The position numbers and the translations under genes were made by a program. A model generated the notes under the pieces. That model worked only from the letters and a program-made list of their open reading frames with translations. It was not told the DNA's origin and did not search any database. From a virus, in IMG/VR virus record IMGVR_UViG_3300006947_000119, positions 1 to 20,255 of that record: 20,255 bases of DNA, one strand, 5' to 3'. Positions 1,008 to 20,255 of this stretch are shown here, one piece after another. Each line of letters begins with the position of its first letter. The stretch's first letter is position 1.

Positions 1008-1036
1008 ATTATACGTTTACTTCGATTAGTTGTCAA
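1008..1036 (-). promoter_or_regulatory. Perfect-consensus sigma-70 promoter ahead of the endolysin gene
   Basis: On the minus strand TTGACA (1036..1031) is followed by exactly 17 bases and TATAAT (1013..1008), matching consensus at all twelve positions. The -35 lies in the last codons of the lipoprotein gene. Transcription would start near 1001, only about two bases before the endolysin ATG at 999. A transcript from here would therefore be essentially leaderless for that ATG, or would use the GTG at 975 with a leader of about 26 bases. Confidence 0.7.
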
Positions 1037-1199
1037 TGGTTCTTTTACTGGGTTTTTTGCGTATTTTGTCTATTATTTTCTTCTTTATAGGCGAAATAGC
1101 AACATCTCCAACAGTAACAGTACCAATTCCCTTTAATGTAAACAGTGAAGGGCCACATGCATTAAGCATTAAAAAGCAACTAATCAATAGTAATCGCAT
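1026..1199 (-). CDS. Small lipoprotein, candidate lysis (o-spanin-like) or exclusion protein
   Basis: A 57-residue ORF starts at an ATG overlapping the polymerase stop (TAATG) and ends with TAA at 1028..1026. It begins MRLLLISCFLMLNACGPS, a textbook short lipoprotein signal: an Arg after Met, a hydrophobic core and the lipobox LNAC with the lipidated Cys at 15. Gly at position +2 of the mature protein does not match the Asp inner-membrane retention signal, so outer-membrane sorting is expected. The mature part is about 43 residues and basic (PIKKKIIDKIRKK). It sits between DNA polymerase and the secreted endolysin, so a lysis role such as an outer-membrane spanin subunit is plausible. It lacks the Pro-rich body of lambda Rz1, and superinfection-exclusion lipoproteins such as T5 Llp are an alternative. 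The lipoprotein call is firm; the function is inferred. Confidence 0.75.
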   Translation of the reverse strand: MRLLLISCFLMLNACGPSLFTLKGIGTVTVGDVAISPIKKKIIDKIRKKPSKRTIDN

Positions 1200-3892: not shown

Positions 3893-4356
3893 ATTTTATA
3901 CTCAAAGTTTTGGGTAGTAGGATTAATGTTAATTAACCTAGCACCGTTTCTAATGTGATAATGTGTCGCCATTGGCGTTAGTGGTGATAATGTCATAATA
4001 GTTTCTATGTTACCTTTTGTCCTCATAAATTTTAAAAGCTCTTCCATGATCTTTTTGCCTGCACCTTTTTTCAAAGACCAAACTGTGTATGCTATTGCTA
4101 TCTTGCCATCTACGTGACTCATAAGATCTAGTTCTTTAACAGTAGTAGGAATTTCATCTGTGTACGCAATACAAATAACACCTTCTATATCGCCATCGTA
4201 TTGTAGTCCAAATATCTTCCTACCTTTGTCTTTGCGAAATTCGTTGCTTAGTTCGGGCCTAACAGGATCATGTGTTATATCAATGCTATCTAATTCTACT
4301 ATTTCTGCTCGTTTGATCCAACTATAAAAGTCGAAATCGTATCCTGCTATTTTCAT
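3889..4356 (-). CDS. GNAT-like acetyltransferase
   Basis: This 155-residue protein looks like a member of the GNAT fold, which transfers an acetyl or other acyl group from CoA. After an N-terminal strand-rich half (KIFGLQYDGDIEGVICIAYT, 47-66), IAIAYTVWSLKKGAGKKIMEE (86-106) resembles motif A, with the Q/RxxGxG/A loop replaced by KKGAGKK. A C-terminal strand ends LININPTTQNFEYKI. The substrate is unknown. The gene is bound by ATGA overlaps to the radical SAM gene upstream and the polymerase downstream, so the three are probably co-translated. A promoter candidate lies about 43 bases upstream inside the radical SAM gene. The motif is divergent, so the family call is moderate; a structural GNAT homologue without activity is possible. 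Confidence 0.65.
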   Translation of the reverse strand: MKIAGYDFDFYSWIKRAEIVELDSIDITHDPVRPELSNEFRKDKGRKIFGLQYDGDIEGVICIAYTDEIPTTVKELDLMSHVDGKIAIAYTVWSLKKGAGKKIMEELLKFMRTKGNIETIMTLSPLTPMATHYHIRNGARLININPTTQNFEYKI

Positions 4357-5537
4357 AAATTGATTTTCCAGTATTTTTCTAATTGTGGGATATAGTTAAG
4401 TATACTTGTTTTTCTGTGTTTGTCAAGTATTTCCGTTGTTTTACAGAAGAAATTCCAATCATCTATATCTTCTTCTGTGCGAGGTTTTCTAAGTGAATAT
4501 ATTAATGCGTCTGTATATTTTGAATTAGCTTCTAACCAATCTGCTAATTCCAACTTGTACTCTACATCAGGGTGAACTGACATACGCAAGTATCTAGGAA
4601 ATGCAAGTGGGCTATTAAATAAGCCGGCGTTATGTGTTAAAACATGTTCACTACCCCATTCAACATATTCTTTAATGTTATACACATTGAGTAGTTGTGG
4701 AGTATATGACATACTAATTTTAAAATTGTGCTGTTGTTCTATAATTCTATCTTGTATTAACTTACCTTTATACTTTCCAATTGGTGTGCTTGGACGAATG
4801 TATTCATACAAATGATTTATGCCGTCCATACTTACAATTAGTTTTGCATTTAGTTTTGTTAATTTCTTTACAATATCATCTTTTACTAATGTAAGATTAG
4901 TTATAATTTTTAACTCTCCTTTGTAGCTGTGTTCATTTAACTTATCCAATAGGTAAACAAACTGCGGTGTATAAAAAGGTTCGCCACCACTTACATCAAT
5001 TAATGATGCATTTAAAAACTCTTGTAAATTATCATCTACAACATTACTTGGTAGCCCATAATCTCTGCCTTTGGGATTAAAAATTGCTCTTCCAACTTCG
5101 TCTCCTAATGCATCGGATAATACTTTAGCATCTTTATACCAACCTGTGCTTCTATGCGGACTGCACATAGTACATCTTAGATTACATGCATTACTAAAGT
5201 CTATCTTAATCTTACGTAGTTTTCCCGGTTGAGTTCCTTTGGTTGCTCCATGAGCAAATTCGCTAAAGTTATTATAACGCATACTTTGACCAACAGCTTC
5301 TTCACCATTAATACAAAGTTCACATCCAGATGGTAAAATATTAGTAAGTGTTTGCTTTCTTGCTAACTGATAATCTTCACTATCAAATGCTTGCTGTATA
5401 CTCATGTCGTTAATGTTTCCAACAAAGCCTTTATGTATGCAACAGAATCCTATACGTCCTTCTTGATCAACGTGTACTTCGTTATGTGGACTTACGCAAT
5501 AAGTGTTATCTGGACTGGGTCTATTTTGTGAAGACAT
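4353..5537 (-). CDS. Radical SAM enzyme with N-terminal SPASM/twitch-like cysteine cluster
   Basis: Radical SAM enzymes use a [4Fe-4S] cluster to cleave S-adenosylmethionine and start radical chemistry. The cluster motif CNLRCTMC is at residues 118-125 and the SAM-binding SGGEPF at 183-188 of the 394-residue form. Before the core are Cys14, Cys32-Cys33 and CELC (72-75), a pattern like the auxiliary-cluster ligands of SPASM/twitch proteins, though those usually lie after the core. A reading from GTG at 5585 adds 16 residues. I prefer ATG at 5537 because GAGGG sits just upstream and it overlaps the methyltransferase stop by only 17 bases. The downstream GNAT overlaps by ATGA. It is a paralogue in layout of the gene at 18875..20104. 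The substrate is unknown; peptide or protein modification is a reasonable guess. Confidence 0.88.
   Translation of the reverse strand: MSSQNRPSPDNTYCVSPHNEVHVDQEGRIGFCCIHKGFVGNINDMSIQQAFDSEDYQLARKQTLTNILPSGCELCINGEEAVGQSMRYNNFSEFAHGATKGTQPGKLRKIKIDFSNACNLRCTMCSPHRSTGWYKDAKVLSDALGDEVGRAIFNPKGRDYGLPSNVVDDNLQEFLNASLIDVSGGEPFYTPQFVYLLDKLNEHSYKGELKIITNLTLVKDDIVKKLTKLNAKLIVSMDGINHLYEYIRPSTPIGKYKGKLIQDRIIEQQHNFKISMSYTPQLLNVYNIKEYVEWGSEHVLTHNAGLFNSPLAFPRYLRMSVHPDVEYKLELADWLEANSKYTDALIYSLRKPRTEEDIDDWNFFCKTTEILDKHRKTSILNYIPQLEKYWKINL
4399..4426 (-). promoter_or_regulatory. Sigma-70-type promoter inside the 3' end of the radical SAM gene
   Basis: On the minus strand TTGACA (4426..4421) is followed by 16 bases and TATACT (4404..4399, five of six). 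The predicted transcript start near 4391 would give a leader of about 35 bases before the GNAT ATG at 4356. It would let GNAT, DNA polymerase and the lipoprotein be transcribed independently of the upstream genes. It lies in coding sequence, so chance is possible, but a perfect -35 with a near-perfect -10 at allowed spacing is uncommon. Confidence 0.5.
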
Positions 5538-6630
5538 ACACACCCTCGAATTTTTCTCTACCCTCTTTCTTATCATTGCCCACACCGGGTCTAGTGTTAA
5601 GCATCATCTTAATTGTTTCTGTGTGTTTAAACCCACACTTCTCAGCTAATTCAATCCAACGGTCAACTACAAAGTATTCTTTATTACCATAGCTTTTATA
5701 ATCAGCAATGTTAGTAGCAAATACTCCATCTGAGTTTAAACCTTTGTGTATGTTTTGCATTGTGGGTGCAACATATCCTTCAAACCAATCATCCATTGTA
5801 GTGTATTTAACCATGCACTGCGTTGGTTCGTCTGAGTATTTTTCTAAATTAAAATAAGGTGGGCTACTAAATGCTAAGTCAATATTTTCGCATTGGTATT
5901 CTTCTGAAGGTGAACAAATAATCTCAGAATCATTTCCCATTAATTTATCTAAATAATTTAAATAGTTAAATGTTTCTGTGTTTGGATCTGTGCCAATATA
6001 AGTGTAGTTCATGTTACTACTATTGATACCCAACAACCTACCTCCGTATCCACAACTGTAATCATATACTCTGCCCCATAGTACAGGACATAAACGTTCT
6101 GCAATTGCCCTTGCATTTTTAGGTTTAAAGTTTTGTACGTTCTCACCTGTTACTAATTCAAGTGAACGTCTAACGGCTGTGGGATATACTAACTTGTTGC
6201 CTTCTCTAAACTCAAAACATATTCTTATAGCTCTGCGTAGTTTTGCATCATTAAAGAACCTGTCTTTTAAACTATTACTACCTCGGCCTTTTGGTTCAGC
6301 TGTTTGCATATTAGTAAATACAAACCTGTTGATTGTTTGACCTTGATTATTTCCAAGTCCTATTCTATTGTTTTCTACTTTGTTGTAAGATGAAGATTTA
6401 AAATTCTTAATTGCAGTTTTTAAACCTTGTTCAGTGAAATAGATAATTGGTACAATACCTCTGTTACGATAGATATTGAATACACGCTCTATTGTGTCTT
6501 GTGGATCTTTTTGATATACTTCGTTGGTAAACGTATCCAATTCACTATAGTGATCTTCATATCCTGTGAACTCATCATTGTGAATGTGTTCTGGTTTGAT
6601 ACCCCAGAATGAATGGATACGCTCTATCAA
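5521..6630 (-). CDS. DNA methyltransferase (SPPY-type amino-methyltransferase)
   Basis: This 369-residue protein carries the two hallmarks of SAM-dependent N-methylating DNA methyltransferases. The SAM-binding motif I is YDYSCGYGGRLLG (189-201), with the following acidic turn YIGTDPN (211-217), and catalytic motif IV is SSPPYF (255-260), a form typical of N4-cytosine and some N6-adenine enzymes. Motif I precedes motif IV closely. The 185-residue N-terminal part has no motif I recognise and could hold target recognition. The start is a TTG at 6630: the frame is closed by a stop four codons earlier, GGAGAG sits at ideal spacing, and no ATG follows for about 100 codons. No restriction enzyme lies beside it, so it is probably a solitary phage methylase protecting or marking DNA. 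Confidence 0.87.
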   Translation of the reverse strand: MIERIHSFWGIKPEHIHNDEFTGYEDHYSELDTFTNEVYQKDPQDTIERVFNIYRNRGIVPIIYFTEQGLKTAIKNFKSSSYNKVENNRIGLGNNQGQTINRFVFTNMQTAEPKGRGSNSLKDRFFNDAKLRRAIRICFEFREGNKLVYPTAVRRSLELVTGENVQNFKPKNARAIAERLCPVLWGRVYDYSCGYGGRLLGINSSNMNYTYIGTDPNTETFNYLNYLDKLMGNDSEIICSPSEEYQCENIDLAFSSPPYFNLEKYSDEPTQCMVKYTTMDDWFEGYVAPTMQNIHKGLNSDGVFATNIADYKSYGNKEYFVVDRWIELAEKCGFKHTETIKMMLNTRPGVGNDKKEGREKFEGVYVFTK

Positions 6631-6631
6631 T

Positions 6632-6958
6632 TTACTCTCCTAGAAAGTACTTGAGTAATCCGGTTGTGTAAATGAAAATGGCAACTCCGTTAATAAAGAC
6701 TAAGGCTCTATCATGCCATATCATACCAACTACTAACCAACCAGTAACTCCAATAAGAGAAATAAGCATACTCCATGGATGAACGTTTGCACTTACTAAC
6801 GCCATACCACAAAGAATAAAGAAACTAGCTGTCCATTTAATATACCAGTCTGTAGTATGTAATGGAGTAATTTTCTTAAAGACTCTAGTGGAGTCTAACT
6901 TCTTGATCTTCTCATCAAGTTTTACCCGAGCTACTTGCTCAATACTTTCCTTGGCCAT
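6632..6958 (-). CDS. Small integral membrane protein, unknown function
   Basis: This 108-residue protein has a charged N-terminal region (1-35, rich in Lys and Glu) and then three predicted membrane segments, roughly 41-58 (ASFFILCGMALVSA), 62-81 (WSMLISLIGVTGWLVVGMI) and 85-103 (LVFINGVAIFIYTTG). The likely topology puts the basic N-terminus in the cytoplasm. Its start overlaps the stop of the DsbA-like gene (TAATG) and its stop lies two bases before the methyltransferase TTG. It resembles small conserved membrane proteins of marine phages, but I cannot assign a function. A holin is conceivable from size and topology, but it sits far from the endolysin and in an early-type unit. Confidence 0.75.
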   Translation of the reverse strand: MAKESIEQVARVKLDEKIKKLDSTRVFKKITPLHTTDWYIKWTASFFILCGMALVSANVHPWSMLISLIGVTGWLVVGMIWHDRALVFINGVAIFIYTTGLLKYFLGE

Positions 6959-8905: not shown

Positions 8906-9190
8906 CTATCGCCTCTTTTTCTCAAGTGCTTTTATACGTTTTTCTAATTCTTCTATTTTTATAGTTAGTTTTGGATTGGCTGCTTTCCATGCATCTGGGT
9001 TATGCTGTAACCAAGTAAAGCCCCAACGATTAACTAAAAAGTCTAACGTTGCTTGCCACTTGTTAATAGCCCAAAAAGCCATGTAAGTATCTTTAATCCA
9101 ATATATGAATAAAGCACCAAATATACTACCTGCTAGTGCTGTCCAGATCCATAACCTGTTTGTCGCCATTTCTAATATAGTATCCCACAT
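8906..9190 (-). CDS. Small membrane protein with C-terminal coiled coil
   Basis: This 94-residue protein has one clear membrane segment near the N-terminus (about 13-32, LWIWTALAGSIFGALFIYWI), a Trp-rich middle, and a highly charged C-terminal heptad-like helix (IEELEKRIKALEKKRR). Its ATG overlaps the stop of the 358-residue gene (TAATG). Its stop lies three bases ahead of the nitroreductase start and supplies that gene's GAGG ribosome binding site. The layout, one membrane anchor followed by a coiled coil, resembles inner-membrane spanins in outline, but the gene is far from the endolysin. It may equally be a membrane-anchored accessory. I do not recognise a family. Confidence 0.7.
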   Translation of the reverse strand: MWDTILEMATNRLWIWTALAGSIFGALFIYWIKDTYMAFWAINKWQATLDFLVNRWGFTWLQHNPDAWKAANPKLTIKIEELEKRIKALEKKRR

Positions 9191-18874: not shown

Positions 18875-20104
18875 TTATAACTCCATATCCTTGTTGTAAG
18901 TATTTATCGATTTATTTAAATCAACAAACGTTTTAGGCCAGTCGGTGCCTCTTAACCTGTCTAGAGAGTCTAGGAACTCGGCACAGCTATATGGATCGCT
19001 ATTGTATTCTAAGTTAGCTTGTAAATAGCTTATTAAGTGTGCAATCTTGTCACTATGTACAGAGTCTGTGTATAACTGTATTAGTTCTAGTTTTGCTTCC
19101 TTTGTTAAATTTTTAGCATCAAACATGTCTGGATGTGACAATATTCTAATATTAATATAATACTTGCTAAAATGATCTAGTAGTTTTAAGAATGTAAACG
19201 CATTTAATACTTGCCATGTAATACTTATTTCTATTTGTGTATTTGGAAGTGTGTCTTCCATGCGTTTAACGTTTTCGTTTATCTTGTACCATTTACTTGG
19301 AAAACGTATATAGTTATTCTGGTCTCCATAATCGTCTATACTTACTCTTAGCATTAACTTCTTAAAATGTTTCCATTGATCAATTGCACGTTGATGTACG
19401 TTTGTAATATTAGTGTCGTACTCTAGTGTAACATTGCCTGCTACACCTGCATCTATTAGCTTTTGTAAAAATACATAATGATGTTCTATAAGCATAGGTT
19501 CACCACCTACTAGATATACATGTTCTAACTGATCTATGTTAGCTTCCATTTGTTCCCAAAAATGTTCACTTTTCCACCAATCATATTCTACGTTTGATTT
19601 ATTGTTTATATCTATTTTTGTATCACTGTCGTAGAAATGATCTGTCTTGTAAACACTAGCCCAATCTTTGTACCACATGTTACTGCTTTGTGGTCCACAC
19701 ATTACACACTTTAAGTTGCATAAGTTTCCAAATCGTAAATCCCAATATATAGGCTTTTGTGTAGTACTTCCATCTGGTGCTGTTAGCTGTACTGCTTTAT
19801 CGTAATCAAATGTGTCTTTGTACATCTTGTTTGTAAATGTACGTCTACTCTTGCCACCATTTTCTTCTTTAACCCAACATGTATTACACTCTGTAGGCTT
19901 TTCTCCTGCAAGAAACTGCTTACGTATTTTACGTGTAAATTCACTGTTGTGGATTTCTTCTATGGTGTGTTCTTTAAAGTTGTGTCCAGTAAGTCCGCCA
20001 TTGCCCGAATCGTGATTACTCATTAGGCAACAAACTCTACTAGCTCCGTTTGTTTTACTTGCAGAGTGAATCCACGGAATAGAACAAAAGCTAGTCTGGG
20101 ACAT
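18875..20104 (-). CDS. Radical SAM enzyme with N-terminal SPASM/twitch-like cysteine cluster
   Basis: This 409-residue enzyme carries the radical SAM cluster motif CNLKCVMC at 129-136 and the SAM-binding GGEP at 200-203. An auxiliary cluster site precedes the core: Cys7 in FCSIPWIH, Cys25-Cys26 and CNTC at 73-76. The shared segment after the cluster motif (C-G-P...WYKDW) recurs as CSP...GWYKD in the paralogue at 4353..5537. The start is ATG 20104; a GTG directly before it (20107) is also open. It overlaps the end of the upstream gene by 14 bases, like the paralogue. The substrate is unknown. Peptide modification, as in SPASM enzymes acting on RiPP precursors, is possible, but no precursor peptide is evident. 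Confidence 0.88.
   Translation of the reverse strand: MSQTSFCSIPWIHSASKTNGASRVCCLMSNHDSGNGGLTGHNFKEHTIEEIHNSEFTRKIRKQFLAGEKPTECNTCWVKEENGGKSRRTFTNKMYKDTFDYDKAVQLTAPDGSTTQKPIYWDLRFGNLCNLKCVMCGPQSSNMWYKDWASVYKTDHFYDSDTKIDINNKSNVEYDWWKSEHFWEQMEANIDQLEHVYLVGGEPMLIEHHYVFLQKLIDAGVAGNVTLEYDTNITNVHQRAIDQWKHFKKLMLRVSIDDYGDQNNYIRFPSKWYKINENVKRMEDTLPNTQIEISITWQVLNAFTFLKLLDHFSKYYINIRILSHPDMFDAKNLTKEAKLELIQLYTDSVHSDKIAHLISYLQANLEYNSDPYSCAEFLDSLDRLRGTDWPKTFVDLNKSINTYNKDMEL
18901..18908 (-). promoter_or_regulatory. Possible late-type box GATAAATA
   Basis: On the minus strand GATAAATA (18908..18901) lies inside the last codons of the radical SAM gene, 28 bases before the ATG of the 247-residue gene. That is the same distance as the TATAAATA at 10294..10301 has from its gene. 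A transcription start about six bases downstream would leave a leader of roughly 22 bases with GGAG in it. It matches the T4 late consensus at seven of eight positions. It could also be chance in AT-rich coding sequence. Confidence 0.4.
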
Positions 20105-20255
20105 CACCGTAAATCCAATCGGCTAGCTCCGAATCAAAACTTTCCATTGTTACTGCTCCGTTTATATCGTAGTATTCAACAAACTGCTTTACTGTTGCTT
20201 TACGTTTGGGATCGTTAATGTAAGGCTTACGCATCTCATTAATTACATGATCAAC
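20091..20255 (-). CDS. Partial unknown protein (C-terminal 54 residues)
   Basis: An open frame enters from the window edge and ends in TAG at 20093..20091, giving 54 residues that end ELADWIYGDVPD. The preceding part is basic (NEMRKPYINDPKRKATVKQF), then acidic. It overlaps the radical SAM start by 14 bases, which mirrors the overlap between the methyltransferase and the other radical SAM gene. The gene is incomplete and unrecognised. Confidence 0.65.
   Translation of the reverse strand, partial: VDHVINEMRKPYINDPKRKATVKQFVEYYDINGAVTMESFDSELADWIYGDVPD

Follow-up and report, generated by a model that had tools for sequence, protein, structure and literature searches.

Two kinds of small phage lipoproteins are the closest described counterparts of the gene considered here. 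The o-spanins are outer-membrane lipoproteins paired with an i-spanin, as described in a survey of spanins (PMC6139136), and in phage T5 the small lipoprotein Llp, made early in infection, sits at the periplasmic face of FhuA (PMC9586334). Here, we analysed a gene for a 57-residue lipoprotein located between the DNA polymerase gene (polB) and an endolysin gene in the IMG/VR virus record IMGVR_UViG_3300006947_000119, the window being positions 1 to 20,255 of that record (20,255 nucleotides (nt)). An initial annotation proposed that this gene encodes an outer-membrane spanin subunit or a superinfection-exclusion lipoprotein, and our data partly support it: the observation is confirmed and the interpretation is half right. 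The gene adds a conserved, unnamed lipoprotein family from uncultured marine T4-like phages, and we tentatively suggest that its product is an accessory outer-membrane lipoprotein rather than an o-spanin, with superinfection exclusion in the manner of T5 Llp as the most likely function.

A lipoprotein gene coupled to polB

The open reading frame (ORF), for which the initial annotation gave no strand, is read here on the minus strand and translates to MRLLLISCFLMLNACGPSLFTLKGIGTVTVGDVAISPIKKKIIDKIRKKPSKRTIDN* (Table 1). As originally described, it has 57 residues and an LNAC lipobox and starts within the polymerase stop codon: the polB stop TAA and the ATG have one A in common, in a TAATG overlap that is also present in the relatives L008, L086 and L089. 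A consensus scan and the alignment identify the features of a signal peptidase II (SPII) substrate, i.e. a K/R-containing n-region, a hydrophobic h-region and a lipobox Cys within the first ~30 residues. Residues -3 to -1 of the lipobox are L-N-A in the window and L-T-A in relatives, and under the +2 rule of E. coli a Gly at +2 predicts sorting to the outer membrane. The mature part comprises 43 residues with a hydrophilic C-terminus, and no hydrophobic segment was found after the signal peptide. The basicity of the C-terminus is not conserved, with a net charge of about +7 in the window and about 0 in L086.

Eleven further IMG/VR contigs, all from marine T4-like phages, share the lipoprotein with the window. 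The copies in L001 and L002 are identical to that of the window, those in L007, L008 and L085 have 62 amino acids (aa) and those in L086-L090 have 57 aa, and the copy in L091 has an altered N-terminus in which the start codon is rebuilt and the lipobox is kept. Conservation downstream of the polymerase, which the initial annotation had named as a check, is borne out in that ORF, frame and lipobox are conserved across three divergent lineages with 52-68% aa identity. Invariant residues in the alignment include ACGP, LFT, VT.GD, PIK and KPSK. Comparison of five distinct DNA versions gave synonymous rates (dS) of 1.1-1.5 between lineages versus nonsynonymous rates (dN) of 0.21-0.38, and these rates indicate that the gene is under purifying selection. 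A strict lipobox scan of the 138-kb contig G001, which contains the same locus, returned only two matches outside larger ORFs, both of which are conserved in the relative G002. Conservation, dN/dS and the rarity of strict lipobox matches together rule out a chance ORF. A second conserved lipobox ORF of 57-59 aa (L104:13218-13397, i.e. G001 51218-51397, and G002 52358-52531) has a C-terminal hydrophobic segment and in that way resembles a very short u-spanin in its plan; it has no family match.

No Pfam or PHROGs family covers the lipoprotein, a PDB profile search gave chance matches only, PADLOC returned none and no relatives were found in the isolate phages searched. A bacterial origin was rejected on the basis of a GTDB genome scan that found no relative, the exact-pattern seeds used being such that distant ones could be missed. 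The antisense ORF that had been flagged as a possible choice of gene callers does exist (Table 1) and is open in all lipoprotein homologues. In this frame, third codon positions pair with third codon positions, and an antisense stop would arise only opposite a sense codon for Tyr, His or Gln. Tyr and Gln are absent from the lipoprotein, and His is nearly so; thus, sense composition explains why the antisense frame is open, no second gene is needed, and an antisense gene was rejected.

Spanin genes and transcription units

The gene directly precedes that of a secreted endolysin, as the initial annotation stated: the neighbouring product has an N-terminal Sec-type signal with a cleavage-like site between ANA and S, and its Pfam Glucosaminidase match scores 56.7 bits against a cut-off of 30.2. 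A position beside the endolysin gene is common for spanins, and mature size as well as lipobox are o-spanin-like; in these respects the predicted product, a short Sec/SPII lipoprotein encoded near an endolysin gene, is similar to the two-component o-spanins lambda Rz1, T4 PseT.2 and phrog_812. Unlike these, it has no homology beyond the signal and no adjacent i-spanin was found, the neighbours being polB and the glucosaminidase gene. Moreover, its weak matches to Rz-like PHROGs (E 0.2-0.5) do not place it in a known o-spanin family, and the match to phrog_6073 covers residues 4-18 only, i.e. the signal peptide.

Importantly for this comparison, two lipoprotein carriers, G002 and G004, encode a separate and complete spanin pair. 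In G002, the i-spanin (146994-147467) and the o-spanin (146527-146997) genes are adjacent with a 4-nt overlap, and in G004 the two genes (38181-38654 and 37802-38251) overlap by about 70 nt. In both, the i-spanin is a coiled-coil protein with an N-terminal transmembrane (TM) segment that matches the Rz-like spanins of phrog_739 (E 5e-13 and 2e-13), and the o-spanin is a lipoprotein that matches the Rz-like spanins of phrog_812 (E 4e-10). G006 (90541-91312) and G008 (67557-68424), which do not have the window-type lipoprotein, also encode an overlapping or adjacent phrog_739/phrog_812 pair, and the pair is present in all four relatives whose contigs cover the region, with or without the lipoprotein. 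G001, the longest contig with the window locus, lacks the syntenic region and has no homologues of the genes at 130-150 kb in G002, so the evidence on the spanin pair comes from the relatives. In samples 3300021087 and 3300021185, lipoprotein and o-spanin are on different contigs, which is suggestive only. Xanthomonas phage Mallos and Stenotrophomonas phage A1432 have homologues of this o-spanin with a spanin annotation, whereas the matching protein of HTVC008M is labelled just as hypothetical. About 5 kb from its spanin pair, G002 encodes a signal-less M15 peptidase (151755-152207, minus strand), a candidate second endolysin.

The endolysin gene has a promoter of its own (Table 1). A distance of 8 nt separates the end of its -10 box from the endolysin ATG, and the endolysin mRNA may be leaderless. 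All relatives checked (L003, L008, L015, L086, L087, L089 and L091) have an equivalent promoter, with 0-1 mismatches, ahead of the endolysin. Such close matches in front of genes are rare in these genomes: in G001, a close upstream promoter match (within 2 penalty units) was found for 8 of 191 genes versus 2.4 expected from shuffles. A few other G001 genes have a similar spacing between -10 box and ATG. No promoter of the lipoprotein's own was found within 150 nt upstream, and a promoter of the same class as the candidate upstream of the GNAT gene is present ~40 nt upstream of polB in L003, L004, L006 and L012-L015. Because a sigma70 promoter lies between the lipoprotein and the endolysin, we assign the lipoprotein to the polymerase unit and the endolysin to a separate unit; as read from the promoter positions, the apparent lysis cassette or operon is split. 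Both promoters resemble host sigma70 sites, and promoter class alone fails to tell a function in lysis from other functions.

In total, the separate spanin pair and the endolysin promoter leave the initial reading as a spanin subunit unsupported, and it appears highly improbable that the lipoprotein functions as an o-spanin together with an i-spanin from an unlinked gene. A u-spanin was rejected in view of a lipobox without a C-terminal TM segment. More generally, a lipobox ORF beside an endolysin gene is insufficient for calling a spanin, the spanin pair being encoded elsewhere in these relatives.

Possible functions of the lipoprotein

In L003, L004, L012 and L015 the endolysin gene follows straight after polB without the lipoprotein, and L005 and L006 have neither gene at this place. 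In G007, the endolysin (L140) is present but the lipoprotein was not found; the search for the lipoprotein in G006-G009 was negative, had no positive control and is weak alone, and the lipobox scan agrees with it for G006-G008. This patchy presence among close relatives fits an accessory function. A survey of neighbouring lipobox ORFs in 74 endolysin relatives yielded mainly unrelated lipoproteins of larger size (about 86-165 aa) that are not of the window family, nearly all 0.7-2 kb away and in other contigs.

Combining (i) the presence of a spanin pair elsewhere in relatives, (ii) the linkage to polB and (iii) the patchy distribution, we suggest that a role at the host envelope is likeliest, with superinfection exclusion as the first candidate. 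In this model, which we hold tentatively, the lipoprotein would be translated from the polymerase mRNA through stop-start (TAATG) coupling, exported by Sec, cleaved by SPII and lipidated on Cys15, and Gly at +2 would target it to the outer membrane of the host, on the inner leaflet. There, it would act on a host component of this membrane from mid-infection on, and the blocked or changed receptor would leave related phages unable to superinfect. As in the case of T5 Llp, expression would probably precede that of the late genes. A Cys11-Cys58 disulphide is present in T5 Llp (PMC9586334), the only Cys in the mature window protein is the lipid-bearing one, and no sequence similarity between the two was found. 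Superinfection exclusion would be compatible with all findings and, if correct, the lipoprotein could give a lead to the receptor that these uncultured phages use on the outer membrane.

Three points weigh against superinfection exclusion. Llp, Cor and superinfection-exclusion families gave no match at E up to 10, and the AlphaFold model has a pLDDT (predicted local distance difference test) of 57, too poor for use or for a fold search. Finally, every copy of the lipoprotein gene directly precedes the endolysin gene, even in L091, the only contig in which it does not directly follow polB. In L091, a gene with weak, below-cut-off phosphotransferase (APH) similarity (L091:5505-5981) is inserted between polB and the lipoprotein.

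Given this constant place before the glucosaminidase gene, and never without that enzyme, the lipoprotein may alternatively be an accessory lysis protein that works with the enzyme and apart from the spanins, for example by restraining it until lysis or by weakening the outer membrane; the export signals predicted for both proteins are consistent with this. However, L140 and L003, L004, L012 and L015 retain the enzyme but not the lipoprotein, the separate promoter splits the pair, and the linkage may reflect only a shared insertion site after polB. We consider this role rather unlikely, and it is improbable that the lipoprotein is a dedicated partner of a possibly leaderless-translated glucosaminidase in a previously undescribed, spanin-independent module for envelope breaching or enzyme restraint.

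A different kind of host takeover at the outer membrane, such as interference with envelope biogenesis or stress signalling in the manner of LptM or entericidin, is unlikely. In its favour, LptM gives weak matches (best E 0.0005) that span the signal and the CG.P start. However, the alignment is limited to the signal peptide and the initial residues and falls below the curated cut-off, and the unconserved basic C-terminus speaks against a membrane-disrupting helix.

Features and neighbouring genes

Table 1. Coordinates of features at the lipoprotein locus, given as positions in the window
Feature	Position	Strand	Basis or remark
Lipoprotein gene, 57 aa	1026..1199	minus	TAATG overlap with polB; homologues L001, L002, L007/L008/L085, L086-L091; dN/dS 0.15-0.26
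Signal peptide, residues 1-14, MRLLLISCFLMLNA	1158..1199	minus	Sequence; n-region R and hydrophobic h-region kept in all homologues
Lipobox LNAC; Cys15, predicted lipidation site; +2 Gly	1155..1166	minus	Sequence; ACGP invariant in alignment
Antisense ORF, 62 aa	1030..1218	plus	Judged a by-product of the sense frame
Sigma70-type promoter TTGACA-17-TATAAT for endolysin	1008..1036	minus	12-of-12 consensus; over last codons and stop of lipoprotein
Candidate promoter TTGACA-16-TATACT for GNAT-polB-lipoprotein unit	4399..4426	minus	Upstream of inserted GNAT gene
T4-type family B DNA polymerase (polB), 897 aa	1199..3892	minus	PHROG 262 E 2e-196; Pfam DNA_pol_B
Secreted endolysin-like glucosaminidase, 191 aa	424..999	minus	Pfam PF01832 E 5e-15; PHROG 3513 endolysin E 2e-13

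In alignments, the window glucosaminidase is 30-36% identical to the endolysins of the pelagiphages HTVC008M, HTVC109P, HTVC115P and Mosig EXVC030M, which, unlike the window, have no lipobox gene beside the endolysin. Elsewhere on the minus strand, the window encodes two radical SAM/SPASM proteins (4353-5585 and 18875-20107) and a three-TM protein of DUF6552 with a holin-like topology (6632-6958, E 4e-20). A further gene on this strand (8906-9190) encodes a 94-aa protein with one TM segment and a C-terminal charged helix, and homologues with 49-82% identity occur in six other relatives, irrespective of whether these carry the lipoprotein.
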